Shown one piece after another: positions 3,947 to 61,531 of a stretch of DNA of 64,000 bases (positions are counted from its first letter, which is position 1; the number at the start of each line of letters is the position of its first letter). The stretch spans positions 1 through 64,000 of the forward strand of contig CALWVN010000001.1 of NCBI GenBank assembly GCA_944384995.1, written 5' to 3'. The notes beneath the pieces were generated by a model, which searched no databases, was not told the DNA's origin, and was given only the letters and a program-made list of their open reading frames with translations. This stretch comes from an uncultured Clostridia bacterium. Its GTDB lineage: Bacteria > Bacillota > Clostridia > Oscillospirales > Acutalibacteraceae. Made by a program: the position numbers and the translations under genes.

Positions 3947-6079
3947 ATGCAAACCGTAAAAAAATCGCTTTGTTTGCTGCTCGCGTTATGGTTGGTTTTT
4001 GCGTTCGCTTCGTGTTCTTCGCAAAACGCAATGGCAGAAAAGCAGGCAACGCCCGTTAACCTTGCCGTGCCGGAACAACGCACAAGGGAGCAAAAGCAAG
4101 GCGATATTTATGTTTCCCCGACCGGCAGCGACGAAAATCCCGGCACAAAAGAGCAGCCCGTGCAAACGCCGCAGCGTGCCGTGGAATTGGCGCGCGCGCT
4201 CGACAAAGCGGAAAAGGTGATTTATTTCGCGGACGGCGAATACCGCATTTCGGCGCTGACCCTGACCGCCGAGGACAGCGGCATCACATTTTTTGCCGAA
4301 AACAGCGCGGTGTTCAACGGCGGGCTGACGCTTGACCCGGCAGATTTTGAGCCGTACAAAGACAATATTCAGGTGTTGGATTTGTCCAAATACGGCGTGA
4401 CAACCGAGCGCATCGGGCAGGTGCGCGCTTTCGGGCAGTACAATCAGGCGGCGAAATACAACGCCGAGGGCAGTCTCTATTGCGAGCTGTTTTGTGACAA
4501 TGTCCGCATGACTTTAGCGCGTTATCCCAATGCAGGGGAATACCTGTATACGGGCAAGATCCTCGATAACGGCGATTCGAAAGAGATCTATACCGACCAA
4601 GGCACCGAAACAAATCCCGATTGGGAAACGATGAAAAACCCGCGCGGCGGCACATTTGAGGCGGACAAAGCCGTGACCGACCGCGTTAAAACCTGGACAA
4701 ACAGCGACGACATCTGGATGTTCGGCTATTTCCAGTATGACTGGGCGGATTCCACCACACCGCTGAAAGAGGTCGGCGACGGCACAGTCACCACCGAATA
4801 CGCAAACGTTTACGGCTTTAAAGAGGGGATGCCCTACTATTTCTTTAACGTGTTTGAAGAGCTGGACGCGGAAAACGAATGGTACATAGACCGGGATAAT
4901 CTCAAGCTGTACTTCATTCCTCCTGCGGACTTCCAAAGCAAATCTCTGGAGATTTCTTTGGAAACCGGCGATCTGGTCACACTGCGAGACGCGCAGAACG
5001 TTGTATTTGACGGTATCACCTTTACCGGCACGCGCGCAAGCGCGATCCGGGGAACGGGCAGCGACATCACGATCCAAAACTGCACCGTCAAAAATGTCGG
5101 GGAAAATGCCATAGAGCTGACAGGCGAGCGCGTCCTCGTTGAGAACAATACGATTACGGCTACCGGCAAGGCGGGCGTGATCCTCACGGGCGGCGACCGC
5201 GAGACGCTCACCTCCGGCGAAAATGTCGTGACCAACAATCTGATCTATGACTGGTCGCAGGTTTACAGGACTTATCAGGCAGCGGTGAGTCTGAATGGTG
5301 TGGGCGCAGTGTGCAGCCATAACGAGATCTACAATTCCCCGCATGAGGCGATCACCTACACGGGCAATAACCACGTTATCGAATATAACGTGATCCATGA
5401 CGTCGTGCTGGAATCCTCGGATGCGGGCGCGATCTATGCGGGGCGCAGTTGGAGCTATTACGGGAACGTCATCCGGTACAACTGTATTTACAACATCGGC
5501 TCCGAAGATTTTACGCCGAGTGGCATTTATTTTGACGATGCGCTTTCCGGGCAGGAAGCCTATGGAAATCTGCTTGTCAATATTCCGGGCTGTGCCCTTC
5601 TGTTAGGCGGCGGCCGCGATTTGAAGATTGAAAACAATTTGGTCGTGAATGCTGCCACGCCGGTTTACTATGACGACCGCGCGATGGTGGACAGCTCCTC
5701 AAGCAGCTGGTTCAAGCATAGCCAAACGCCCGGAGAGGGGCTTTGGGCAACGCTTACGGAGGTGGATGTGCAGTCGGAAGCATGGAAAGCCGCTTTCCCG
5801 GAACTGTCCGCGCTTTCCGACGACTTTGCAAACACCGAAGACCCGCAGTTTGCCGCCAACCCCGCGAACAGCACCGTGAAGCATAATGTTGTTGTAAACG
5901 CCAAAAAGAGCCTCGGCGATATTTCCAAAGGGGCTGAAAAATACAGCGACATATCCGAAAACACGCTGTATAAATTGGGCGATGCACCTTTTGCCGCAGA
6001 CGGCGATTATACGCTGACACAGCTGCCCGAGGGCTTTGAGCAGCTTCCGTTTGATCAAATGGGCAGAACTTATAAATAA
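3947..6079 (+). CDS. Secreted beta-helix lipoprotein, GH141-like architecture
   Basis: The 710-residue product begins with a lipoprotein signal (hydrophobic run, then FAFASC at about residue 23), so it should be lipid-anchored outside the membrane. [13 protein letters not shown] and a DGEY/LTAEDSG segment follow, then a long right-handed beta-helix with repeated IQNCTV, VENNTI and IEYNVIHD rungs. This layout is shared with pectate-lyase-fold carbohydrate enzymes, including the GH141 fucosidase/xylanase family. The resemblance is by pattern, so the substrate is unknown. It lies between GH95 and xylA, 37 bases after GH95, in one orientation. A related protein is encoded at 18048-20240 (both have an FEELD/FEHLD...E.Y.D segment before the helix). 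Confidence 0.75.
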
Positions 6080-6176
6080 AGCCGTACCCCTGTACGGGTC
6101 TGTTTGTGTGAATACACGGCTGCAAGACAATGGTACAATCCAATATCATATTATTTTGAAGACAAGAGGCGCAAAA

Positions 6177-7499
6177 ATGTACGAAAAGATTACCATTCCG
6201 ACCATCCGCTTTGAGGGTGCGGAAAGCCAAAATCCGCTGGCGTTTCATTACTATGACGCCGACCGGGAAATCCTGGGCAAGCCCATGAAAGACCACCTGA
6301 AATTTGCCATGTCCTGGTGGCATACCCTGTGTGCGGGCGGCACAGATATGTTCGGGCGCGCGACCTTCGACAAATCCTTCGGCGCTGTGCCGGATACCAT
6401 GGAACATGCCAAAGCAAAGGTCGATGTCGGCTTTGCCTTCATGGAAAAGCTGGGTATCCCGTATTTCTGCTTCCATGACGTGGATCTGGTACCCGAATCG
6501 GATGACATCAACGAAACCAATGCCCGTCTGGACGAGATCTCGGATTATATTTTGGAAAAAATGCAGAAAACAGGCATCAAGTGCCTTTGGGGCACGGCCA
6601 ATATGTTTTCCAATCCGCGCTACATGAACGGTGCGGGCAGCACCAATTCCGCCGAGGTGTATACCTTTGCCGCGGCACAAATCAAAAAGGCGCTGGATTT
6701 GACCGTAAAATTCGGCGGCGAGGGCTATGTGTTCTGGGGCGGCCGCGAGGGCTATGAAACCCTGCTCAATACGGACGTCAAGTTTGAACAGGAAAACATC
6801 GCGCGCTTGATGCGCATGGCGGTGGAATATGGACGCAGCATCGGCTTTGCAGGCGATTTTTATATCGAGCCGAAGCCGAAAGAGCCCATGAAGCACCAAT
6901 ATGATTTTGACGCGGCGACCGCGATCGGCTTCCTGCGGCAATACGGGCTCGACAAGGATTTCAAGCTGAATATCGAAGCGAACCACGCCACTTTGGCAGG
7001 GCATACGTTCCAGCATGAGCTTCGTATTTCAGCTGTCAACGGGATGCTCGGCAGCATTGACGCCAACCAGGGCGATCTGCTTTTGGGCTGGGATACGGAC
7101 GAATTCCCGTGCAATGTGTATGACGCGACCATGTGCATGTACGAAGTCCTTAAAGCGGGCGGGTTTGTGCACGGCGGGTTAAACTTTGACGCAAAATCCA
7201 GACGCCCGAGCAACACGATGGAGGATCTTATACAAAGCTATATTTTGGGGATGGATACCTTTGCACTTGGGCTTATCAAGGCGGCCGCACTCATCGAGGA
7301 CGGACGGCTTGACCGCTTTGTCGAGGCGCGTTATGCCGGCTTTAAAAACGGTATCGGCGCCAAAATTGTCAGCGGCGAAACGACGCTTCAAGAACTGAGC
7401 GACTATGCCTGCGCCAAGAAGAAACCCGAAGCGCCGTCCTCCGGCAGACAGGAATACCTGCAGGCGGTCGTCAATTCCGTGCTGTTTGGGAAAGGGTAA
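6177..7499 (+). CDS. xylA: Xylose isomerase
   Basis: Interconverts D-xylose and D-xylulose in the cytoplasm. The 440-residue length is typical of the class II enzyme. Catalytic and metal-site motifs are present: FHDVD near residue 99, [19 protein letters not shown], a [16 protein letters not shown] segment and LGWDTDEFP. The ATG at 6177 is chosen because the family N-terminus (family form Y......I.FEG..S.NPLAF..Y) begins there and AGAGG precedes it; the open frame extends 47 codons further upstream without homology. xylB follows 4 bases after the stop, so the two are clearly co-translated. Confidence 0.97.
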
Positions 7500-7503
7500 A
7501 ACG

Positions 7504-9030
7504 ATGCAGTATGTGATTGGTATCGATCTGGGAACATCGGCGACCAAAACCGTTTTGTTTGATATAACGGGCAAAAAAATTGCATCCGCCGCAAAGGAAT
7601 ATCCCCTTTCGCAGCCGCAAAACGGCTGGGCCGAGCAGGATCCGGCGGAGTGGTATGCGGCGGCGATCGAGACCCTGCGCGCCGTTGTGGAAAAAAGCGG
7701 CGTTCCGGCTGCGGATATTGTATCGCTTGGCATTTCCGGGCAGATGCACGGCCTTGTGATGCTCGACGAAGCGGGCAAGGTGCTGCGTCCGGCGATTCTG
7801 TGGTGCGACCAGCGCACGGAAAAGGAATGTGCAGAAATCACGGAACGTGTTGGCTTTGACAGGCTGATTGCAATCACCGCAAATCCCGCGCTGACCGGCT
7901 TCACGGCATCCAAAATTCTGTGGGTCAAAAAGCACGAGCCGGCGATTTATCAAAAATGCCGCCATATTTTACTGCCGAAGGATTATCTTCGCTACAAGCT
8001 GACAGGTGTTTTTGCTACGGAAATGTCGGATGCATCCGGAATGCAGCTTTTGGATGTGCCGCACCGCTGCTGGTCAAAAGAGGTGCTGGCTGCGCTCGAC
8101 ATCGATCCCGCCTTGCTCGGCAGGCTGTATGAGTCCCCCGAGGTGACGGGTACGATCCATAAAGAAGCCGCAGGCCTGACCGGGCTTGCGGTCGGCACGC
8201 CCGTGGTCGGCGGGGCAGGGGATAACGCGGCGGCCGCTGTGGGTACGGGCGTTGTCCGCGACGGCAGAGCGTTTGCCACCATCGGGACTTCCGGCGTTGT
8301 GTACGCGCATACCGACAAGCCGATCATCGACCCAAAAGGGCGCGTGCATACTTTTTGCTGTGCCGTCCCCGGCGCGTGGCACGTTATGGGTGTGACGCAG
8401 GCGGCAGGCTTTTCTTTGCAGTGGTTCAAAAACAATTTCTGTATGCCTGAAATCGAACGTGCAAAGCAGACGGGGAAAGATGTTTACCAAATCACAGACG
8501 AGGAAGCGTCGAAGATCCCGATCGGCGCAGACAGGCTTTTGTATCTGCCGTATTTGATGGGCGAGCGCACGCCGCACCTCGACGCGAACTGCCGCGGCGT
8601 TTTCTTCGGCCTTTCCGCCATACATACACGCGCACACTTGATCCGCGCGGTGATGGAGGGCGTCGGCTATTCGCTTTTGGACTGCATGCAGGTGTTAAAA
8701 GAAATGAATATAGCGCCTGCGGAAATGCTGGTTACGGGCGGCGGGGGAAAGAGCATCCTTTGGCGGCAGATGATTTGCGATATGTTTGAAATACCGGTCT
8801 GTACGACCGCCTCGCCCGAAGGCCCGGCATTGGGCGTCGCGATCCTGGCGGCTGTCGGTGCAGGGATCTACAAAAGCGTGGAGGCGGCGTGCGACGTCAT
8901 GGTGCAAAAGAATGATGATGCGCTGCTGCCCGTCCGGGAAAACACGGCGATCTACCGCCAATACCATGCTTTGTATAAAAACCTGTATGCGTCTTTAAAA
9001 GATGACTTCCAAGCGCTCGCCGCCCTATAA
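7504..9030 (+). CDS. xylB: Xylulokinase
   Basis: FGGY-family kinase of 508 residues that phosphorylates D-xylulose to xylulose 5-phosphate for the pentose phosphate pathway. The N-terminal GIDLGTSATKT loop, the ISGQMHG segment with LWCDQRT, DASGMQLLD, and the C-terminal GGGGKSILWRQM ATP-site motif are all visible. The ATG at 7504 is set by the GGGAAAGGG ribosome site inside the end of xylA and by homology; the longer open frame overlaps xylA. Its pairing with the isomerase makes the substrate assignment strong. Confidence 0.97.
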   Translation: MQYVIGIDLGTSATKTVLFDITGKKIASAAKEYPLSQPQNGWAEQDPAEWYAAAIETLRAVVEKSGVPAADIVSLGISGQMHGLVMLDEAGKVLRPAILWCDQRTEKECAEITERVGFDRLIAITANPALTGFTASKILWVKKHEPAIYQKCRHILLPKDYLRYKLTGVFATEMSDASGMQLLDVPHRCWSKEVLAALDIDPALLGRLYESPEVTGTIHKEAAGLTGLAVGTPVVGGAGDNAAAAVGTGVVRDGRAFATIGTSGVVYAHTDKPIIDPKGRVHTFCCAVPGAWHVMGVTQAAGFSLQWFKNNFCMPEIERAKQTGKDVYQITDEEASKIPIGADRLLYLPYLMGERTPHLDANCRGVFFGLSAIHTRAHLIRAVMEGVGYSLLDCMQVLKEMNIAPAEMLVTGGGGKSILWRQMICDMFEIPVCTTASPEGPALGVAILAAVGAGIYKSVEAACDVMVQKNDDALLPVRENTAIYRQYHALYKNLYASLKDDFQALAAL

Positions 9031-54064: not shown

Positions 54065-55816
54065 TCAGCGGTAATCCTCCCGCGTATTTAAGAATTTCTT
54101 TTCCTCCGGCAGCAGGTCAAGACCGATCGTGCCGCCCGGGTTCATCAGGTAATCGGGGTCGAAATAGTTTTTAAGCACCTTGAATACCCCATATTCCTTT
54201 TCGCCGATATACCCCTCCAGCCACGGGGCAAACATCTTGCCGATGCCGTGGTGGTGCGAAATGGCGGCGCCCGATTTTTGGATCGCGTCGAGAATGGTGG
54301 TGTGATACCGCTTAAAAGCGTCCGCGTCATTCATCTTGGTGATGAAGATGAAGTACAGGTTCGCCCCCTGCGGGTAGCAGTGCGACATATGCGTGGTCAC
54401 GACGGTGTTAGGCAGCGCGTGGCAGACCTTGCGCACGTCGCGGTGCACCTGCGCCATATTCGACCAGTTCACGGTGCACTCCAGCGTGTCGGTGATGACG
54501 CTGAAATCCATCAGTGTGTCGCGCAGATACGGGTCGTTGAAGCGGCCCTTTTCCCAGCTCTTTGTAACGTATCCCGTCATCGGCATTGCGCCGTGCTTGA
54601 GTGCGATCTTGGCAATGTTTTTTGCTACGTTCTTGGAAAAGCCCTTTTCGCCGTCGGTAAAGCCTAAGAACATGCAGCGTTCCATGTCCTTAAAGCCGAA
54701 CTTGTCAAGCAGGGGCTCCAGCGGCGTTTCGTCCACATTGTAAAGCTTGAGCATCAGGTGCGTTTCCTCGGGGTCGGAAAGACGGAACACCGAGGAGTAG
54801 CCGCATTCGCACTGCATCATCTCGCGCGCGGCATCCATAGCGATCTCCCAATTCTTAAACATGTAGGAGAACCGCTTGCGGTTTTCGGGCATCCAGCGGA
54901 ACACGCGCAGCGTGACTTCCGTAAGTACGCCGAACGTCCCTTCGGAGCCCATCATGATCTGGTTGAGGTTCGGACCCGTTGCTTCGCGCGGGTAATGGCT
55001 CGTAACGATGCGCCCGATGGGCGTCGCATATTTTTGCGAGAGCACGATGTCTGTGATCGTGCCGTAATAGGTGCTGTTCTGCCCGGCGCCGCGTGTGACC
55101 GTCCAGCCGCCGACGCTGCTGTACTCAAAGGACTGCGGGAAGTGCCCGCAGGTATAAGCGCGCTTTGCGCCGAAGAGCTTCGGCGCGCTTTGCAGCGTTT
55201 CTTCGAGCTTCGGACCGGACATACCCGCCTGCACGGTGATGGTCTGGTCGGTTTCGTTAAAGCTGATGACCTTGTTGAAGCGCTTACGCATGTCAAGCGT
55301 CATCCCGCCTTTAACGGCCTCCATGCCGCGCGTGACGGAGCTGCCGCCGCCGTAGACATACAGCGGAATCTTATTTTCAACGGCGTACGCCACAAGCTGC
55401 TCGACCTGCTCGGTCGTGTCTGGATAGACAACTACATCCGGCAGATTCTCGATCTGCTTGTGCCGCAGACGCAAAAGGTCATAGCCCGTGCAGCCGTAGG
55501 CGACTGCAAGACGGGGGTAGTCTTCAGTCGTTACGAACTCGTCGCCGACGATCTTTTTGAGCGCCTCAACGTGCTTCGGATCGATCTTAGAGGGGTAGTC
55601 GGACAGATCGACCTTGTCAAAGCCGATGTCGTCGGTGTAATCCTTGAAATCGTCGTCGGTCATTTTGAAGGTTTCTTTCATCAGCTTGTAAAGAGATTCC
55701 TTCGGGTACTTGAAGAATTCGGGGTCGCCCCAGCGGAAGATCGAGCGGTAGCTGCCCTCCGGCGCAGGGGTCAGCACCCATTTCGGCTCAAAGCCCTTAT
55801 ACGGTTTGTTGCTCAT
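54065..55816 (-). CDS. Alkylglycerone-phosphate-synthase-like FAD oxidoreductase (VAO/PCMH family)
   Basis: 583 residues. An N-terminal linker (about 1-110) precedes the FAD domain, with VVVYPDTTEQVEQLVAYAVENKIPLYVYGGGSSVTRG, then CGHFPQSFEYSSVGGWTVTRGAGQNSTYYG and IMMGSEGTFGVLTEVTLRV. The C-terminal cap ends with ISHHHGIGKM and NPGGTIGL. In alkylglycerone-phosphate synthase the corresponding GH.P.S.E.S..GGW..TR..G and HHHG.G motifs bind FAD and substrate. Other relatives are D-2-hydroxyacid dehydrogenases. It is last in the operon, overlapping the kinase by 4 bases. No glycerone-phosphate acyltransferase partner lies near, so ether-lipid synthesis is not implied; a dehydrogenase role is as likely. 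Confidence 0.78.
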   Translation of the reverse strand: MSNKPYKGFEPKWVLTPAPEGSYRSIFRWGDPEFFKYPKESLYKLMKETFKMTDDDFKDYTDDIGFDKVDLSDYPSKIDPKHVEALKKIVGDEFVTTEDYPRLAVAYGCTGYDLLRLRHKQIENLPDVVVYPDTTEQVEQLVAYAVENKIPLYVYGGGSSVTRGMEAVKGGMTLDMRKRFNKVISFNETDQTITVQAGMSGPKLEETLQSAPKLFGAKRAYTCGHFPQSFEYSSVGGWTVTRGAGQNSTYYGTITDIVLSQKYATPIGRIVTSHYPREATGPNLNQIMMGSEGTFGVLTEVTLRVFRWMPENRKRFSYMFKNWEIAMDAAREMMQCECGYSSVFRLSDPEETHLMLKLYNVDETPLEPLLDKFGFKDMERCMFLGFTDGEKGFSKNVAKNIAKIALKHGAMPMTGYVTKSWEKGRFNDPYLRDTLMDFSVITDTLECTVNWSNMAQVHRDVRKVCHALPNTVVTTHMSHCYPQGANLYFIFITKMNDADAFKRYHTTILDAIQKSGAAISHHHGIGKMFAPWLEGYIGEKEYGVFKVLKNYFDPDYLMNPGGTIGLDLLPEEKKFLNTREDYR

Positions 55817-57375
55817 TCAATATCTCTCCTTTTTGTGATTTTGATGATTCTGCGGTAAATGGGTTCCAAACGGCGGAAGACCTTGCTGTACGCGCCTGTG
55901 TACAAGTCCATGTAGGTCTCATGCTCCGTCTTGCGGGGCGTGAACACATCGGTCTCATGCACCATATGCGCGATCGCATCGTCATAATCCCGGAAAACGC
56001 CTTTTGCGAGAAACGCGACCATCGCCGAGCCTACGGAGCAGGCTTCGTGCGTCTGGATGCGCTTGACGGGGACCCCGAACACATCTGCGGTGATCTGGCA
56101 GACGATGTCGCTGCGCGCGCCGCCGCCGCCGACGAATACTTCGTCGATATGCAGTTTGGCGCGTTTTTGCAGGATCTCCAGAGAGTGGTACAGCTCAAAG
56201 GCGATGCCCTCAATGATCGCACGGTAAAAATGCAAATGGGTGTGATAGTCGGCAAAGCCGATGACCGCCCCGCGCGAGGTCGGGTTGATAACGCCCGGCG
56301 TCCAGTACGGCTGTAACAGCAGCCCCTCACAGCCCGGCGGAAGCCGCTCAATGTATTTGTCCAAAAGCTGTTCGGGCGCGCAGCCCAGAACGCTTGCCTC
56401 TTCGCGCTCCGCCGCGCCGAATTCTTTCACGAACCAGGACACCAGCCAAAAGCCGCGGTAAATTTCGATTTCCGGGTTGAAAAGATGGTTCGGAACAGCA
56501 GGGTAGGCGGGCATGAACTGCTGCGGTTCCACGTAATCCTCCACGGCGATCTGCACAGTCGCGGTTGTTCCAAAGGAGATCGCTGCGCGGTTTGATTTCA
56601 CGACCGAAAGTCCCAACGTTTCACAACCTTTATCCGATCCCGTTGCGATCAGCGGAAGACCTGCGGGCACGCCGCTGTGTTGGGAGAATTCTTCTGTGAT
56701 ATGCCCGATCACTTCGCCCGATTTTACAAGCGAGCACAGCTTTTCATTTTCTACATAGCAGACGCATTTTGTAAAGCTTGAATCCTTTTTCCAAACACGG
56801 TGCTTGTAGTCAAAGGGAATGTGCCCGATCATGTTCGCCTCGGAATCCGCCAGCACACCTGTCATTTTGTAGTTGAGATAGGTCGGCAGCATCACATAAT
56901 GCGCCGTTTTTTCCCAAAGCTCCGGCTGGTTTTGGCGGATCCAGTTGGAGGCGGAGGCGCGGTAGAGGATTTTGCTTGCCTCCTCCATACCCGCCAAGCG
57001 GAAGATCCATTTTTTCCATAAGGGGAACGGATCGTCGAAATCCGCCTGTCGTTTGTCCAGCCACAAAATGATGTCGCGAAGCGGCTCGTTGTTTTCGTCC
57101 AGACACAGCACCGTATCGCGAATGGTTGTGATCGTCACGGCAATGATGTTTTGCAGCTTATCCTGATTGCGTTCGCAAACAACTTTTCCCGCTTCGCATA
57201 TGCGGTCATAGTAAAAGTCGGGACGCTGCTCTGCCCAGCCGGGATTGCGCGAATAATACGGTTCGCTGTATTTGATCTGGTGAAAATCCGCAAAGCTGCC
57301 GTCGGGGCGAACCAACAGGCAGCGTGCGCTTTGCGTGCCGACGTCAAACGTCAGCACGAGCTGTGTGTCATCCAT
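55813..57375 (-). CDS. FGGY-family sugar/polyol kinase, substrate unknown
   Basis: 520 residues. The N-terminal LVLTFDVGTQSARCLLV phosphate loop, the ITTIRDTVLCLDEN and ILWLDKR segments, and the C-terminal GGGGARSDIVCQITADVFG ATP motif place it in FGGY. The N-terminal loop differs from glycerol kinase, and AISFGTTATVQ and LLLQPYWTPGVINPTSRGAV are atypical of xylulokinase, so the substrate cannot be named. The operon context suggests a polyol or three- to four-carbon sugar whose phosphate the flavoproteins oxidise (inference). It starts 5 bases after the DUF1667 stop. Confidence 0.8.
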   Translation of the reverse strand: MDDTQLVLTFDVGTQSARCLLVRPDGSFADFHQIKYSEPYYSRNPGWAEQRPDFYYDRICEAGKVVCERNQDKLQNIIAVTITTIRDTVLCLDENNEPLRDIILWLDKRQADFDDPFPLWKKWIFRLAGMEEASKILYRASASNWIRQNQPELWEKTAHYVMLPTYLNYKMTGVLADSEANMIGHIPFDYKHRVWKKDSSFTKCVCYVENEKLCSLVKSGEVIGHITEEFSQHSGVPAGLPLIATGSDKGCETLGLSVVKSNRAAISFGTTATVQIAVEDYVEPQQFMPAYPAVPNHLFNPEIEIYRGFWLVSWFVKEFGAAEREEASVLGCAPEQLLDKYIERLPPGCEGLLLQPYWTPGVINPTSRGAVIGFADYHTHLHFYRAIIEGIAFELYHSLEILQKRAKLHIDEVFVGGGGARSDIVCQITADVFGVPVKRIQTHEACSVGSAMVAFLAKGVFRDYDDAIAHMVHETDVFTPRKTEHETYMDLYTGAYSKVFRRLEPIYRRIIKITKRRDIE

Positions 57376-57380
57376 GGCAG

Positions 57381-57749
57381 TTACCTCCCTTCACCCGTGT
57401 ACAGCATATCGGACGTGGCGATAATGTCTACCCCAAGCCCTAAAACATTTTGGATCACCGTATCGCCGCGCCGCACACGCTCTTTGACGACGGTATGGTT
57501 GATCTCCCGCATGACATCAAAAATACGGTCTTTCGGGATGTCTGCCGAAACGCGGACGGGGAGTACCGGCGCTTCCGGAAAATCGGTGCGCACCGTGGAG
57601 CAGATGGTGCGCATAGGCGCCGTCATTTCGGAAACGGCAAACTGTTCGCCGCGCTTGCAACTGTTGCCGGAGACAACATATGTACCGTCTTTTTCTTCAA
57701 TGTGCATGGTACAGCCGCGCGGGCAGACGATGCAGACGAGCTCATCCAT
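57381..57749 (-). CDS. DUF1667 cysteine protein (probable Fe-S subunit)
   Basis: 122 residues with Cys6, Cys9, Cys13 and Cys31 in VCIVCPRGC ... GNSCKRGE, suited to one iron-sulfur cluster or metal. The C-terminal half is a small alpha/beta domain. DUF1667 proteins are typically encoded with a GlpA-like and a pyridine-nucleotide-type flavoprotein, probably as an electron-transfer subunit in place of GlpC. It overlaps the flavoprotein gene upstream by 8 bases and is followed closely by the kinase. Confidence 0.85.
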   Translation of the reverse strand: MDELVCIVCPRGCTMHIEEKDGTYVVSGNSCKRGEQFAVSEMTAPMRTICSTVRTDFPEAPVLPVRVSADIPKDRIFDVMREINHTVVKERVRRGDTVIQNVLGLGVDIIATSDMLYTGEGR

Positions 57750-59004
57750 TTGCTTTCACCTCGATATCGAATTCGATTTCCGAAGACGCGTCCAACGGAT
57801 ATTTCGAAAAATCCACCGTCAGCCGTTCCATTTCCGGCGGACGCAGGAACGGATATTTTTTGGAAAATGCTTCTTCCCCGTTGATCCGCATTTTTAAGGT
57901 GCATCCGTTCAAAATATCGCGGCTGCGGAAATACAGCACGGTTTCATGGTTATCTGCATCCAAATTGAGCCGCTGCGGCACGATATAGGAGAGCATTTTG
58001 GCTGCGTTTATCGGTATTTCCTGCCTCTTTTTACGCACATACAGCGCTGCATTTTTGCCTGCGCATTCGCCGCTTTCGGAAACATAGTCCACAAGGTCGT
58101 TGACGTGTAAAGCGTTCCCGCAGGAAAATACGCCGTCCACCGAGGTCATCAGCTGTCCGTTGCACAGGGGGCCTTTGGTTTTCGGATCGATCTCTACGCC
58201 CAAAGATTCCGCCAGCTCGTTTTCAGGTATCAGCCCCACAGAGAGGATCAGCGCGTCGCATTCTAGGATCTGTTCCGTACCGGCGAGCGGCTGCATTTTA
58301 TCATCTACTTCTGCGATCTCCACGGCGGTCAGGCGGTCGTCGCCGAATACGCGCGTGACCGTATGGGAGAGATACAGCGGAATGTTATAGTCGTGCAGGC
58401 ATTGGTGGATGTTGCGCGTCAACCCCGAGGGCGTGGGCTTTGCTTCGTAAACGCCCAACACCTTGGCACCCTCCAGCGTGAGCCGCCGCGCCATAATAAG
58501 ACCGATGTCGCCGCTGCCCAAAATAACACATCGCTTCGTCGGAAGCTCGCCTAAAAGGTTAGTTAAATGCTGCGCCGTGCCCGCCGTGAATACGCCAGCC
58601 GGGCGTGTGCCATGGATGGAGACTTGCTTGGCGGTGCGTTCGCGGCAGCCGGTGGAAAGCACCAGCGTTTTGGCTTCGACCGTCTCCACACCGTCGCGCG
58701 AGACGAGCGTCACATGAAATCCGCCGTTTTCCTTCGGCGCGATGCGCGTCACAAAGGTCAGCGTCATCGCGGGGATATCCGCTTTGCAAAACGCATCGAT
58801 AAACCGTTCCGCGTATTCGGGACCCGACAGCTTCTCCCCAAATCGCACAAGCCCGAAGCCATCGTGGATGCATTGCTTTAATATCCCGCCGAGCCGTGCT
58901 TCACGCTCGATAAGCAGCGTTTTCGCGCCGTTTTCATGCGCTGCCGTCGCGGCAGCTAAGCCCGCAGGGCCGCCGCCGATAACGACCGTGTCGAATGTAC
59001 GCAT
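57742..59004 (-). CDS. NAD(P)/FAD-dependent oxidoreductase subunit (Pyr_redox_2)
   Basis: 420 residues. The FAD motif is TVVIGGGPAGLAAATAA, the second Rossmann motif CVILGSGDIGLIMARRLT, and the FAD-ribityl segment GVFSCGNALHVNDLVDYV. LSTGCRERT is shared with sarcosine-oxidase- and opine-dehydrogenase-type alpha subunits and with GlpA partners in Firmicutes. It has no own Fe-S motif, so clusters come from the DUF1667 protein and the BFD domain of the next subunit. It probably moves electrons from the GlpA-like subunit to NAD or ferredoxin. Confidence 0.85.
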   Translation of the reverse strand: MRTFDTVVIGGGPAGLAAATAAHENGAKTLLIEREARLGGILKQCIHDGFGLVRFGEKLSGPEYAERFIDAFCKADIPAMTLTFVTRIAPKENGGFHVTLVSRDGVETVEAKTLVLSTGCRERTAKQVSIHGTRPAGVFTAGTAQHLTNLLGELPTKRCVILGSGDIGLIMARRLTLEGAKVLGVYEAKPTPSGLTRNIHQCLHDYNIPLYLSHTVTRVFGDDRLTAVEIAEVDDKMQPLAGTEQILECDALILSVGLIPENELAESLGVEIDPKTKGPLCNGQLMTSVDGVFSCGNALHVNDLVDYVSESGECAGKNAALYVRKKRQEIPINAAKMLSYIVPQRLNLDADNHETVLYFRSRDILNGCTLKMRINGEEAFSKKYPFLRPPEMERLTVDFSKYPLDASSEIEFDIEVKANG

Positions 59005-59016
59005 CCCTTTCCCTCC

Positions 59017-60720
59017 TTATTTTGTTCTGCCGAACGTAATGGTCGATTCCGCAGAGGATTTTTTGACTTCGCTTAAAGGCACGCCTAAAAACTCGGCAAT
59101 GATCTGCATCACGGGCGGGGAACAGAAGCCCCCCTGGCAGCGTCCCATGCCGGGGCGCACACGCTTTTTCACGCCGTCCACGGTCGGTACGCAGATGGGG
59201 GAGCGCAGAGCGTCTAAAATCTCCCCTTTGCTTACTTCTTCACAGCGGCAGACCATGATGCCGTAATCGGGATTTTTGCGGATCATCTCGGCGCGCTGTT
59301 CGTCGCTCATTTCCCGCAGCACAGGCACGCCGTGCCGGATGGGGGAGAAGTCCGTATTCTTTTTCACCGCTTTTTCCTTTTGCAGCATTTCCACCGCCAT
59401 ATCGGCAACGTCAAGCGCTACGGCGGGGGCGGTGGTCAGCCCCGGGGACTGGATGCCCGCACAGTGGATGAGGTTTTTCGTCTTGCGCCCATGCTCGATG
59501 ATAAAATCCTCTTCAAAGGTCGGGGCGCGCACGCCGGTAAAATAGGTGATGATGTCGCGTTCGGAAAGGCGCGGCATGGTTTTTTTCTGCTTCGCGAATA
59601 CATGCTCGATGCTCTCGCGGTGTGTGGCAACGTTTTCTTTTTCATACGTCTCTACCGCATCGGGACCCACGAGCAGATTGTCGTGCACCGTGTGCAGAAT
59701 GCCGCCGCCCTTGGAGTGCGTTTTGCTGCGGGTGATTTCTTTAATGGACGCGATCGAGTGCATGAATGCTCCCGCTTTTTTGTCGAGAATGGAGTTTGTG
59801 CCGCGGCGCGGGTGTATGGAGAAAAAGCGGTCGCCCGCCATTTTTGCAATATCCTCTGAAAACACGCCGGCCGCGTTGATCACAAGATGCGGATAGATCG
59901 TGCCGCGGTTGGTTTCCACACTTTTGATTTTTCCGTTTTCGAGCTGCATGGAAAGTACGGCGGTGTTGAGCGCCACCTCTGCGCCATTTTGTACGGCGTT
60001 TTCGGCGTAGGCGATCGTCAGCCCGTAGGGACACACGCACCCGGAGGAGGGGTTGGAGATCGCAAATTTGAATTCCTCGCCGAAATTCGGCTCGACACGG
60101 TGCAATTCTTCGCCGGAGATCAGCTTGGTGTCGGAAATGCCGTCATGCTGTTTGCGCCATAAGCAATAGAGCGCCACAAGCGGTTTCAGATAACCTTTGT
60201 TAAAGCAGACATATTGCCCCACACGCCGAAACGGTACGTCCAGCTCTTTACAGACCTGTGCATACATCTCGTTGCCTTTGCGTATGTAATGGTGTTTCAG
60301 CGAGCCTTTGGACAGGTCGATGCCCGGGTGCACTTCACCGTCGTTGCGGCCCGAAGCCTGCAGCGCAAGGTCGGGCTCTTTGTCCACGAGCAGAATGTCA
60401 AGTTTCCATCTGGAGAGCTCCCGCGCGATGCTCACACCCGAGATCCCGCCGCCGATCACAAGCACGTCGGGTTCTCTGCCGTCCAGCGCGTTATCGTGAA
60501 GAGACGGCAGACGCATCGGCGTGTCTTTTACCTCGTCACAGACGATGTCGTTGACGACGTGGGTGGTGCTGTATTTGGTCGCAGCAGTTTGGCAGGCATC
60601 CACCACGTCTTTCCATGTGGGCAAATGCCCCTGCAAAACGATGCATCCGTCGCGCAGTATCGCGCGCACCGCGCCGCCGTAGCGGGCGTACAGCTTTTTA
60701 TTGATCCTTACAAGCGACAT
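59017..60720 (-). CDS. GlpA-like FAD dehydrogenase with BFD [2Fe-2S] domain and BON-like N-terminus
   Basis: 567 residues. Residues about 5-75 look like a BON-type domain (KLYARYGGAVRAILRDGCIVLQG ... VVNDIVC). Then follows the DAO fold with VLVIGGGISGVSIARELSR and SGRNDGEVHPGIDL, and the C-terminal cysteine cluster VCRCEEVSKGE ... GRCQGGFC of BFD-type [2Fe-2S] domains. GlpA oxidises glycerol 3-phosphate; here the partner kinase is not a standard glycerol kinase, so the substrate is uncertain. The ATG at 60720 matches the conserved N-terminus; an upstream frame of 15 codons is poorly supported. First gene after the promoter at 60798-60826. Confidence 0.85.
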   Translation of the reverse strand: MSLVRINKKLYARYGGAVRAILRDGCIVLQGHLPTWKDVVDACQTAATKYSTTHVVNDIVCDEVKDTPMRLPSLHDNALDGREPDVLVIGGGISGVSIARELSRWKLDILLVDKEPDLALQASGRNDGEVHPGIDLSKGSLKHHYIRKGNEMYAQVCKELDVPFRRVGQYVCFNKGYLKPLVALYCLWRKQHDGISDTKLISGEELHRVEPNFGEEFKFAISNPSSGCVCPYGLTIAYAENAVQNGAEVALNTAVLSMQLENGKIKSVETNRGTIYPHLVINAAGVFSEDIAKMAGDRFFSIHPRRGTNSILDKKAGAFMHSIASIKEITRSKTHSKGGGILHTVHDNLLVGPDAVETYEKENVATHRESIEHVFAKQKKTMPRLSERDIITYFTGVRAPTFEEDFIIEHGRKTKNLIHCAGIQSPGLTTAPAVALDVADMAVEMLQKEKAVKKNTDFSPIRHGVPVLREMSDEQRAEMIRKNPDYGIMVCRCEEVSKGEILDALRSPICVPTVDGVKKRVRPGMGRCQGGFCSPPVMQIIAEFLGVPLSEVKKSSAESTITFGRTK

Positions 60721-60763
60721 GCGGCATCCGTCCTTTCCGCCTTGGTATTCGCAATTTCGAGCC

Positions 60764-60785
60764 AAGTCGGTTAAACGACCGACTT
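60764..60785. promoter_or_regulatory. Operator candidate for the TetR regulator
   Basis: A perfect inverted repeat AAGTCGGT-N6-ACCGACTT, just downstream of the minus-strand -10 box in the flavoprotein operon's 5' region. Its size and symmetry suit a TetR-family dimer, and the regulator is encoded divergently alongside. Confidence 0.7.
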
Positions 60786-60797
60786 AATTCTTTTAAT

Positions 60798-60826
60798 AGA
60801 ATAGTACACTTTGTCGAATTTGTCAA
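60798..60826 (-). promoter_or_regulatory. Promoter of the flavoprotein/kinase operon
   Basis: On the minus strand: TTGACA (60826-60821), 17-bp spacer, TATTCT (60803-60798). The operator candidate overlies the start of the transcript. Confidence 0.85.
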
Positions 60827-60955: not shown

Positions 60956-61531
60956 ATGGCGGCGCCCAGAAAAGAAAATGTCAAGGAGATCGTGCTCGAC
61001 GCAACGGCAGCGTTGTTAAAAACAAATACATTTGCCGACCTGTCGCTGGCACAGATCGCAAAGGCGGCGGGCGTTTCCAAGGGGACGCTTTATTACCATT
61101 ACAAAACCAAGGGCGAGATATTCTTTGATTTGACCGACCGCTACTTAAACGAACAGTGGGACGATTTCATCCGCTGGACGGAAAACAAGGAAAAGGACAC
61201 ATCCATCCGCCGCCTGGTCAAATATGTCGTTGAGCGAAACACGGCATCTTCGGAACTGCGTCTGCACCTGTTTTGCGAAGCGCAGACGGGCGACGAGGCG
61301 CTGCGCAAAAAACTCGTCAAACGTTACGGCGAATTTCAAAAGCTTATCAGTGCAAAGATCTCGGAACGAACCGATATTCCCGCGGACTTTCTGACATGGC
61401 TCATCCTGCTTGTTTCCGACGGGATCATCGTGCAGGAGGCGATCGGCAACGCAGATTTCGACGCCGAAAGCTTTATTGCCACCGGCGCAAAGCTTTTGGA
61501 AACACTGCGGCTGCCGAAACCGGATCAATAA
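60956..61531 (+). CDS. TetR-family transcriptional regulator
   Basis: 191 residues. The N-terminal helix-turn-helix reads KENVKEIVLDATAALL ... LAQIAKAAGVSKGTLYYHYKTKGEIF, the canonical TetR pattern. The rest is the helical ligand-binding and dimer domain. The ATG at 60956 follows GGAAAGGTG. It is divergent from the flavoprotein/kinase operon with a 22-bp perfect operator between them, so it is most likely that operon's repressor; the ligand is unknown. Confidence 0.92.
   Translation: MAAPRKENVKEIVLDATAALLKTNTFADLSLAQIAKAAGVSKGTLYYHYKTKGEIFFDLTDRYLNEQWDDFIRWTENKEKDTSIRRLVKYVVERNTASSELRLHLFCEAQTGDEALRKKLVKRYGEFQKLISAKISERTDIPADFLTWLILLVSDGIIVQEAIGNADFDAESFIATGAKLLETLRLPKPDQ

Follow-up and report, generated by a model that had tools for sequence, protein, structure and literature searches.

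A stretch of 64,000 nucleotides from the genome of an uncultured Clostridia bacterium (family Acutalibacteraceae, contig CALWVN010000001.1), hereafter called the window, carries on its minus strand, from 60720 to 54065, an operon of five intact and tightly packed genes. They encode a GlpA-like dehydrogenase, a Pyr_redox flavoprotein, a DUF1667 cysteine protein, an FGGY kinase and a relative of alkylglycerone-phosphate synthase (AGPS). On balance, we slightly favour the reading that the operon as a whole serves the inducible, oxygen-independent breakdown of 1-O-alkylglycerols and their phosphates; ether lipids are probably its subject and degradation its direction. A Pfam scan of the five open reading frames (ORFs) assigned DAO and Fer2_BFD, Pyr_redox_2, DUF1667, FGGY_N/C, and FAD_binding_4 with FAD-oxidase_C, respectively. 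Adjacent genes overlap at two places, FGGY with AGPS by 4 bases (55813-55816) and Pyr_redox with DUF1667 by 8 bases (57742-57749). This ORF and Pfam check confirmed the packing, the overlaps and the family identities described in the original prediction, which had been made from the DNA sequence. At the AGPS end of the operon, folC and xth genes converge with it. The elements of the operon are:

54065..55816, minus strand: AGPS-family flavoenzyme (best PDB match 2uuu, an AGPS; fold of the AlphaFold2 model; catalytic residues kept)
55813..57375, minus strand: FGGY kinase (PF00370/PF02782), in a clade apart from GlpK and XylB
57381..57749, minus strand: DUF1667 cysteine protein, small partner (PF07892, 6.9e-30)
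57742..59004, minus strand: Pyr_redox flavoprotein, GlpB-like partner (PF07992, 4.8e-31)
59017..60720, minus strand: GlpA-like FAD dehydrogenase of 567 amino acids (PF01266 and PF04324; DAO and BFD 2Fe-2S)
60469-60720, minus strand: N-terminal BON-like domain of the GlpA-like protein (Pfam matches of relatives, model fold)

The AGPS-like flavoenzyme

Judged by its sequence, the last gene of the operon encodes a relative of AGPS and not a lactate dehydrogenase. In a sequence search of the PDB the protein matched Dictyostelium AGPS (2uuu) with 235.6 bits and guinea-pig AGPS with 183.3 bits, compared with 85.3 bits for a D-lactate dehydrogenase, and the AGPS match was nearly full-length (residues 31-561 of 583). 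The control protein L049, a relative of LctD, gave the reversed pattern, with 434 bits to LctD and 77 bits to AGPS. An AlphaFold2 model of the window protein (31 rows) had a pLDDT of 87, and the first 37 PDB matches returned by Foldseek with this model were all AGPS, followed by lactate dehydrogenases (LDHD). The GEHG motif of GlcD and the lactate dehydrogenases was not present in the protein, which has SHHHG instead of SGEHG, and the NCBIfam GlcD model gave 133 bits, missing its cut-off of 568. A D-lactate or glycolate dehydrogenase (GlcD, LctD, D-LDH) is ruled out by the AGPS scores, the missing GEHG motif and the L049 control. The original prediction had named such a dehydrogenase as the outcome that would speak against it; together with the Foldseek result, these data exclude that outcome.

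In Dictyostelium AGPS, residues R352, R447 and Y508 are important, Y508 has been proposed as the base, and an adduct between N5 of the flavin and dihydroxyacetone phosphate (DHAP) is described (excerpt of PMC3509576). Residues were mapped to this enzyme by hand from a pairwise alignment (chain index +3), and the equivalents of R352, R447 and Y508 in the window protein are R345, R432 and Y488. All 31 aligned sequences (that of the window included, five being looser relatives) have these three residues as well as H521 and H523 without variation, and H522 of the SHHHG motif is Gln in the HQH-type proteins of form B, a set of loci described below. The triplet H521-H523 corresponds to what we take to be a functional site of AGPS. 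The protein thus shares with AGPS (Dictyostelium 2uuu, guinea pig 4bby) a near full-length homology, the same fold and the Arg/Arg/Tyr and His-His-His equivalents, whereas it differs from the eukaryotic enzymes in being bacterial, in its place in a kinase/dehydrogenase operon, in an HxPQS motif and probably in a reversed direction of the reaction. Since the residues of the AGPS reaction are kept and GEHG is missing, cleavage is more likely than oxidation, and the protein is proposed to be an alkyl-DHAP ether-cleaving enzyme. The idea of the original prediction that two separate flavoenzymes oxidise the products is not borne out, because the AGPS-like protein keeps the non-redox residues of AGPS and has no GEHG motif.

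AGPS-like relatives at about 31-32% identity (L041-L048, with a DHHG motif) were set aside as another family; their surroundings, where readable, form a sugar/aldolase-looking operon. In the host's order, L042 and L044-L048 represent another recurring operon, in which the DHHG-type AGPS-like gene stands with ORFs that by appearance encode iron-sulphur, aldolase and sugar-kinase proteins; several of these loci also hold a distant FGGY kinase, and the pathway is possibly one for a sugar acid or polyol. A further AGPS-like group (L079, L082, L083, L087) has the HHHG motif, is without the second Arg and has a CCG/Fer4-type partner (scanned in L079). A YegS-type lipid kinase gene is next in L079, and fatty-acid-synthesis-looking ORFs are near in L082.

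The dehydrogenase and the kinase

GlpA, Pyr_redox and DUF1667 proteins are glycerol modules, and the first three genes of the operon have the GlpABC-type architecture, with a DAO and BFD subunit, a Pyr_redox partner and a small Cys-rich partner in one operon. The GlpA-like protein shares 44 positions with three canonical GlpA proteins in an alignment; it missed the cut-off of the NCBIfam GlpA equivalog (126 bits versus 553). Its start is more likely ATG 60720 than TTG 60765, since 19 aligned relatives span 566-593 amino acids, consistent with a length of 567. About 85 residues at the N-terminus of the operon GlpA make up an additional domain which the canonical proteins do not have (476 amino acids for the one of the host genome, 489 for that of L085). 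Of 33 N-termini of operon GlpA proteins, 15 matched PF04972 (BON) with E<=1 and a best value of 8.6e-6; that of the window protein gave no match. The model of this domain had a pLDDT of 92, and its best PDB folds were DolP and OsmY, with weak E values of 0.035-0.049 (none <=0.001) and probabilities of 0.99-1.00. The title of the DolP entry in the PDB reads phospholipid-binding. The extra domain is probably BON-like, a phospholipid-binding type.

The host assembly (1.9 Mb, 86% complete) contains a second GlpA/Pyr_redox/DUF1667 trio on contig C1 at about 289110-292160, minus strand (L010 9099-12159), with no kinase or AGPS gene beside it and a GlpA without the BON extension. This trio is probably an ordinary glycerol-3-phosphate (G3P) dehydrogenase. 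It shares with the operon the GlpA with BFD, the Pyr_redox partner and DUF1667, whereas the window copy adds the BON-like domain and the linkage to the kinase and AGPS genes. A canonical GlpK is encoded on contig 20 of the host (711 bits versus the NCBIfam cut-off of 590).

The kinase of the operon remained below every NCBIfam cut-off; XylB was best with 225 bits versus 380, and the GlpK model gave 129.7 bits versus 590. With respect to E. coli GlpK, in which R83, E84, Y135, D245 and Q246 are presumably the glycerol-contact residues, R83 and D245 are kept, Q246 is replaced by Lys, E84 by Asp, and Y135 and F270 are also replaced; the E84 equivalent varies among the relatives of the operon kinase. 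In a kinase tree of 31 rows, 23 operon-type kinases of both forms A and B stood on one side of a branch with support 95/98, which parts them from GlpK, XylB and others. The operon kinase therefore shares with GlpK the FGGY fold and the R83 and D245 equivalents, and differs from it at the four other positions and in belonging to a separate clade. This kinase subfamily (E<=1e-70) was found in 12 of 398 genomes, and in 11 of these the AGPS-like gene is no more than about 2.1 kb away on the same contig. The remaining genome, G325, has the kinase and the AGPS-like gene on different contigs, with a GlpD-type gene next to the kinase at the end of its contig. The operon kinase is proposed to be an alkylglycerol kinase.

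These findings bear on the possibility that the operon is a redundant one for glycerol/G3P and its AGPS-like protein a D-2-hydroxyacid dehydrogenase. The glycerol-type modules and the membership of the AGPS-like protein in the GlcD superfamily are in its favour. It is contradicted by the canonical GlpK and the additional GlpA trio elsewhere in the host, by the replaced kinase positions (Y135, Q246, F270, and E84 to Asp) and by a motif of AGPS type instead of GEHG type, and we regard it as very improbable. Because of the separate GlpK and the second trio the operon is not one for plain glycerol use, and with the kinase residues a plain glycerol operon is ruled out. The original prediction was right in this respect. 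Its statement that no canonical glycerol kinase is present is correct at the locus and incorrect for the genome.

Another FGGY kinase of the window (6036-9030, plus strand) exceeds the NCBIfam xylulokinase cut-off and directly follows an ORF that by appearance encodes a xylose isomerase.

Distribution, alternative partners and regulation

The close form of the operon (form A) was studied in 103 loci: the window, L040, L069-L076, L096-L175 and L200-L212. L096-L175 are the best 80 of at least 549 relatives from a scan of GTDB contigs and for this reason are biased to close relatives. Near-copies occur in the set (L175/L200, apparently the same species; L204/L205, L103/L104 and others), so that counts are not independent, and several loci stop at contig ends, where a missing gene cannot be read as absent. 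Alignment A3 does not include L169. GlpA was present in 95 of the loci, Pyr_redox in 98, DUF1667 in 93, FGGY in 71 and TetR in 53. GlpA, Pyr_redox, DUF1667 and FGGY genes all accompany AGPS in 60 of the 103 loci, which argues for an arrangement beyond chance and removes the concern, raised with the original prediction, that the gene order might be unique to this genome.

The distribution is patchy, which we count as a catabolic sign. In the host's order, form A was found in 2 of 197 genomes (its own and G146). In a sample of the phylum, 29 of 398 genomes had an AGPS-like match at E<=1e-40, ten of which (own included, at least 49% identity) are form A. Among the matches listed, those nearest to the AGPS gene (97-99%) belong to Candidatus Fimenecus and gut Clostridia. 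The best 80 include many gut Clostridia bins, bins of Treponema and Anaerolineaceae, and the isolates Clostridium cadaveris, Eubacterium callanderi, Faecalicatena orotica and Faecalicoccus pleomorphus. The neighbours of these 80 loci were clustered, and partly identified, in a search for a recurring transporter or lipase. The commonest neighbour family was an ABC ATPase (9 loci, median 5 kb). Two other kinds of neighbour, Fe-ADH-type genes (4 loci, one of them scanned) and MFS_2-type genes (6 loci, two of them scanned), occurred too rarely to be informative.

The middle step appears in two versions. In the form-B loci L077, L086 and L090 the gene order is AGPS, GlpD-type dehydrogenase, FGGY, and the GlpD-type dehydrogenase (PF01266 and PF16901; DAO and DAO_C) was found in all four form-B loci scanned (L077, L080, L086, L090) and also in the form-A locus L075. 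The exchange of the GlpA trio and the GlpD type between the kinase and the AGPS-like enzyme suggests that the middle step oxidises a secondary alcohol resembling that of G3P.

The kinase also has an alternative neighbour. A gene for a YegS-type diacylglycerol kinase follows AGPS after 0-20 bases in 8 of 32 loci without FGGY and in 0 of 71 loci with it (Fisher 4e-5, the rows not being independent). Its identity was indicated by Pfam DAGK_cat and YegS_C in L171, L174, L201, L209 and L211, and by phmmer scores of 269-273 bits in L208, L210 and L212. A DegV/FakB-type gene follows the YegS-type kinase in L208-L212 (Pfam checked in L209 and L211), and in L173 DegV/FakB and FakA genes come after AGPS. 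In the order of G606, the AGPS gene was found in 16 of 245 genomes searched (E<=1e-120); the assemblies, including L201 and L208-L212, have only 0.8-1.6 Mb, and in several carriers YegS-type kinase and DegV/FakB genes adjoin AGPS.

The BON-like domain, the YegS-type kinase, DegV/FakB and a lipase-like gene at an operator-like site (see below) point to a lipid-type glycerol, which we consider quite likely to be the substrate; it fits better than the polyol or short sugar proposed originally. A small non-lipid glycerol ether or another polyol might still be broken down, the lipid signs being incidental. Most FGGY kinases have sugars or polyols as substrates, and genes of the MFS_2 sugar-transporter type occur near L096/L097/L099 and L101/L122/L126 (one scanned per cluster). 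With the four lipid associations against it, and with no widely recurring transporter type in the best 80 of at least 549 loci, we judge this explanation to be distinctly unlikely. A check for recurring transporters had been suggested with the original prediction, and its outcome in these loci was negative.

Regulation is suggested by three elements upstream of the operon:

60764..60785, no strand: palindrome AAGTCGGT-N6-ACCGACTT of 22 bp in the TetR-GlpA intergenic region, predicted TetR operator
60798..60826, minus strand: TTGACA-17-TATTCT promoter-like match (consensus match only), just upstream of the palindrome
60956..61531, plus strand: TetR-family regulator (PF00440, 2.4e-12), divergent from the operon

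The divergent TetR gene and the palindrome are part of the operon unit, and the regulator is a probable repressor of the operon. In 53 of the 103 form-A loci a TetR homologue (at least 40 bits) was found no farther than 9 kb from AGPS, in 45 of them on the opposite strand. The operator consensus across relatives is AGTCGGTC-N4-GACCGACT. With up to 2 mismatches the palindrome was found in 32 of the 38 intergenic regions between TetR and GlpA, that of the window among them, and with up to 3 in 36 of the 38, compared with 2 and 35 of 760 in a control shuffled in two-base blocks. In the host assembly, 60764-60785 is the sole site at up to 2 mismatches. Matches of the promoter type are frequent in the region (10 found versus a mean of 4.5 in shuffles).

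A wider regulon based on operator searches was dropped, because many sites were at chance level when compared with reversed controls; extra sites beyond the operon often reflect chance. Only one looked worthwhile. In the related genomes G601 and G602 a copy with 1 mismatch lies at the same place, near the start (chosen by hand) of an alpha/beta-hydrolase gene and between it and a divergent asnA, which the site also faces. The hydrolase is of the BD-FAE/Abhydrolase_3 type, and its nearest NCBIfam model was hormone-sensitive lipase (79 bits versus a cut-off of 350). An operon-type FGGY kinase was looked for in G601 and G602 and none was found. Two other sites with 2 mismatches, both unproven and perhaps due to chance, occur in G604. 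One (C14, L235, site 7451) lies about 70 bases upstream of an ORF fusing parts of a glycyl-radical activase and enzyme, with another glycyl radical enzyme nearby; the other (C53, L236, site 7608) lies about 50 bases upstream of a DUF2804 gene with a hand-chosen start.

Proposed pathway, rival direction and related systems

In the proposed pathway, the FGGY kinase, or in some relatives the YegS-type kinase, would phosphorylate the free primary hydroxyl group of an alkylglycerol to give alkylglycerol-3-phosphate. The BON-GlpA/Pyr_redox/DUF1667 complex would dock to the membrane via its BON-like domain, and this complex, or the GlpD type, would oxidise the secondary hydroxyl group at C2 to give alkyl-DHAP, with electrons passed on via FAD and iron-sulphur centres towards an acceptor. 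The AGPS homologue may then break the C1 ether without oxygen, by AGPS chemistry run backwards or hydrolytically: Y488 would take a proton to form a carbanion, an adduct between flavin N5 and DHAP would be formed, and a long-chain alcohol would be expelled. Release with water would give DHAP and release with a fatty acid acyl-DHAP. TetR would repress the operon through the AGTCGGTC-N4-GACCGACT operator. Carriers without FGGY may enter the pathway at the level of alkylglycerol phosphates or rely on a different kinase.

That this pathway runs in the degradative direction is rather likely. The catabolic signs are the TetR gene with its conserved palindrome, the patchy distribution, the separate GlpK and GlpA trio, and the absence of an acyltransferase among the five genes. 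The main rival, which we consider unlikely, is ether-lipid synthesis or salvage, in which the AGPS homologue would convert acyl-DHAP with a fatty alcohol to alkyl-DHAP, the dehydrogenase would act as an alkyl-DHAP reductase, and the kinases would feed salvaged alkylglycerol to membrane lipids. It agrees with the intact AGPS residues and with the pathway as drawn by the Pseudomonas authors (excerpt of PMC8151288). The regulatory and distributional signs just given speak against it, and neither a DHAP acyltransferase nor a fatty-alcohol-forming reductase was present among the five genes, the rest of the genome not having been searched. Moreover, the middle step exchanges between two types of G3P dehydrogenase. 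The FAD/iron-sulphur G3P dehydrogenases, whichever the type, work in the oxidative direction, which was counted against synthesis. The original prediction that the operon is not one for ether-lipid synthesis is probably right, although not proven.

Several observations weigh against breakdown. To our knowledge AGPS works in the synthetic direction only, its reverse or hydrolytic use being our proposal, and the window protein has HxPQS where eukaryotic AGPS has HxPDS, a conserved Asp being replaced by Gln. FGGY is absent from 32 of the 103 form-A loci (L117, L158, L163 and L170 being cut by contig ends), an operon-type kinase was not found in 19 of 26 FGGY-less genomes searched (the assemblies being incomplete), and no FGGY gene was seen in the form-B loci L080, L088 and L089. 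Only two groups, that of L171 and the order of G606, supply the YegS-type link, and an FGGY kinase is present elsewhere in 3 of the 8 genomes with a YegS-type neighbour, which weakens the idea of a clean swap from FGGY to YegS-type kinase. The YegS-type kinase, DegV/FakB and FakA neighbours could also serve lipid building. A PlsY-type G3P acyltransferase gene that lies beyond the window, about 5 kb past TetR (L179 8454-9110), counts for synthesis as well; it looks like a separate housekeeping gene, and the earlier statement that no acyltransferase is present holds within the operon and fails in its vicinity. No lipase or transporter gene was constant beside the operon in the best 80 of at least 549 loci. 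The operator-pattern searches yielded 28 sites in 19 genomes versus 27 for the reversed control, and 27 sites in 24 genomes versus 9. Finally, deletion of the related operon in P. aeruginosa gave no phenotype in the tests described (excerpt of PMC8151288).

The latter operon, PA3026-PA3025-PA3024, is the nearest precedent; it is under the AraC regulator GliR (PA3027), and its function is unassigned. PA3026 is an oxidoreductase proposed to convert acyl-DHAP to alkyl-DHAP, PA3025 a GlpD homologue and PA3024 an FGGY kinase; the gene for a YegS-like kinase, PA3023, adjoins the operon, and excess GliR raised the phospholipase C gene PA3464 as well as the YegS-like kinase gene (all from the same excerpt). 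By these descriptions, its order matches that of the form-B loci L077, L086 and L090. Form-B kinases are among those in the FGGY clade of the tree, and the window likewise combines an AGPS-like enzyme, a G3P dehydrogenase and an FGGY kinase. The window differs in that BON-GlpA/Pyr_redox/DUF1667 stands where Pseudomonas has GlpD, that its regulator is of the TetR and not the AraC type, and that it has a palindrome of its own. Two papers describe the monooxygenase AGMO as the sole enzyme known to break the alkyl-glycerol ether bond (excerpts of PMC7911779 and PMC9192799). It also acts on the glycerol ether bond of alkylglycerols, but it is an unrelated tetrahydrobiopterin monooxygenase.

The enzyme families are thus known, and the three-part logic has a precedent in Pseudomonas. 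Among the papers listed in searches of the open-licence literature, no account was found of an anaerobic AGPS/FGGY operon or of AGPS in ether breakdown; neither the anaerobic version with BON-GlpA, DUF1667 and TetR/palindrome nor its reading as ether-lipid breakdown was met there. We advance more tentatively the possibility that this is the first anaerobic ether-lipid breakdown described, by reverse AGPS chemistry via a flavin-DHAP adduct, in gut Firmicutes and, with GlpD, in other bacteria. If the proposal is true, it would offer a set of named genes, along with an enzymatic mechanism and a site of regulation, through which the recycling of ether lipids by anaerobes could be tested, and it would explain the orphan GliR operon of Pseudomonas. 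Ether lipids would join the diet- and host-derived compounds dismantled by gut Clostridia, and AGPS chemistry would here break ethers rather than make them.

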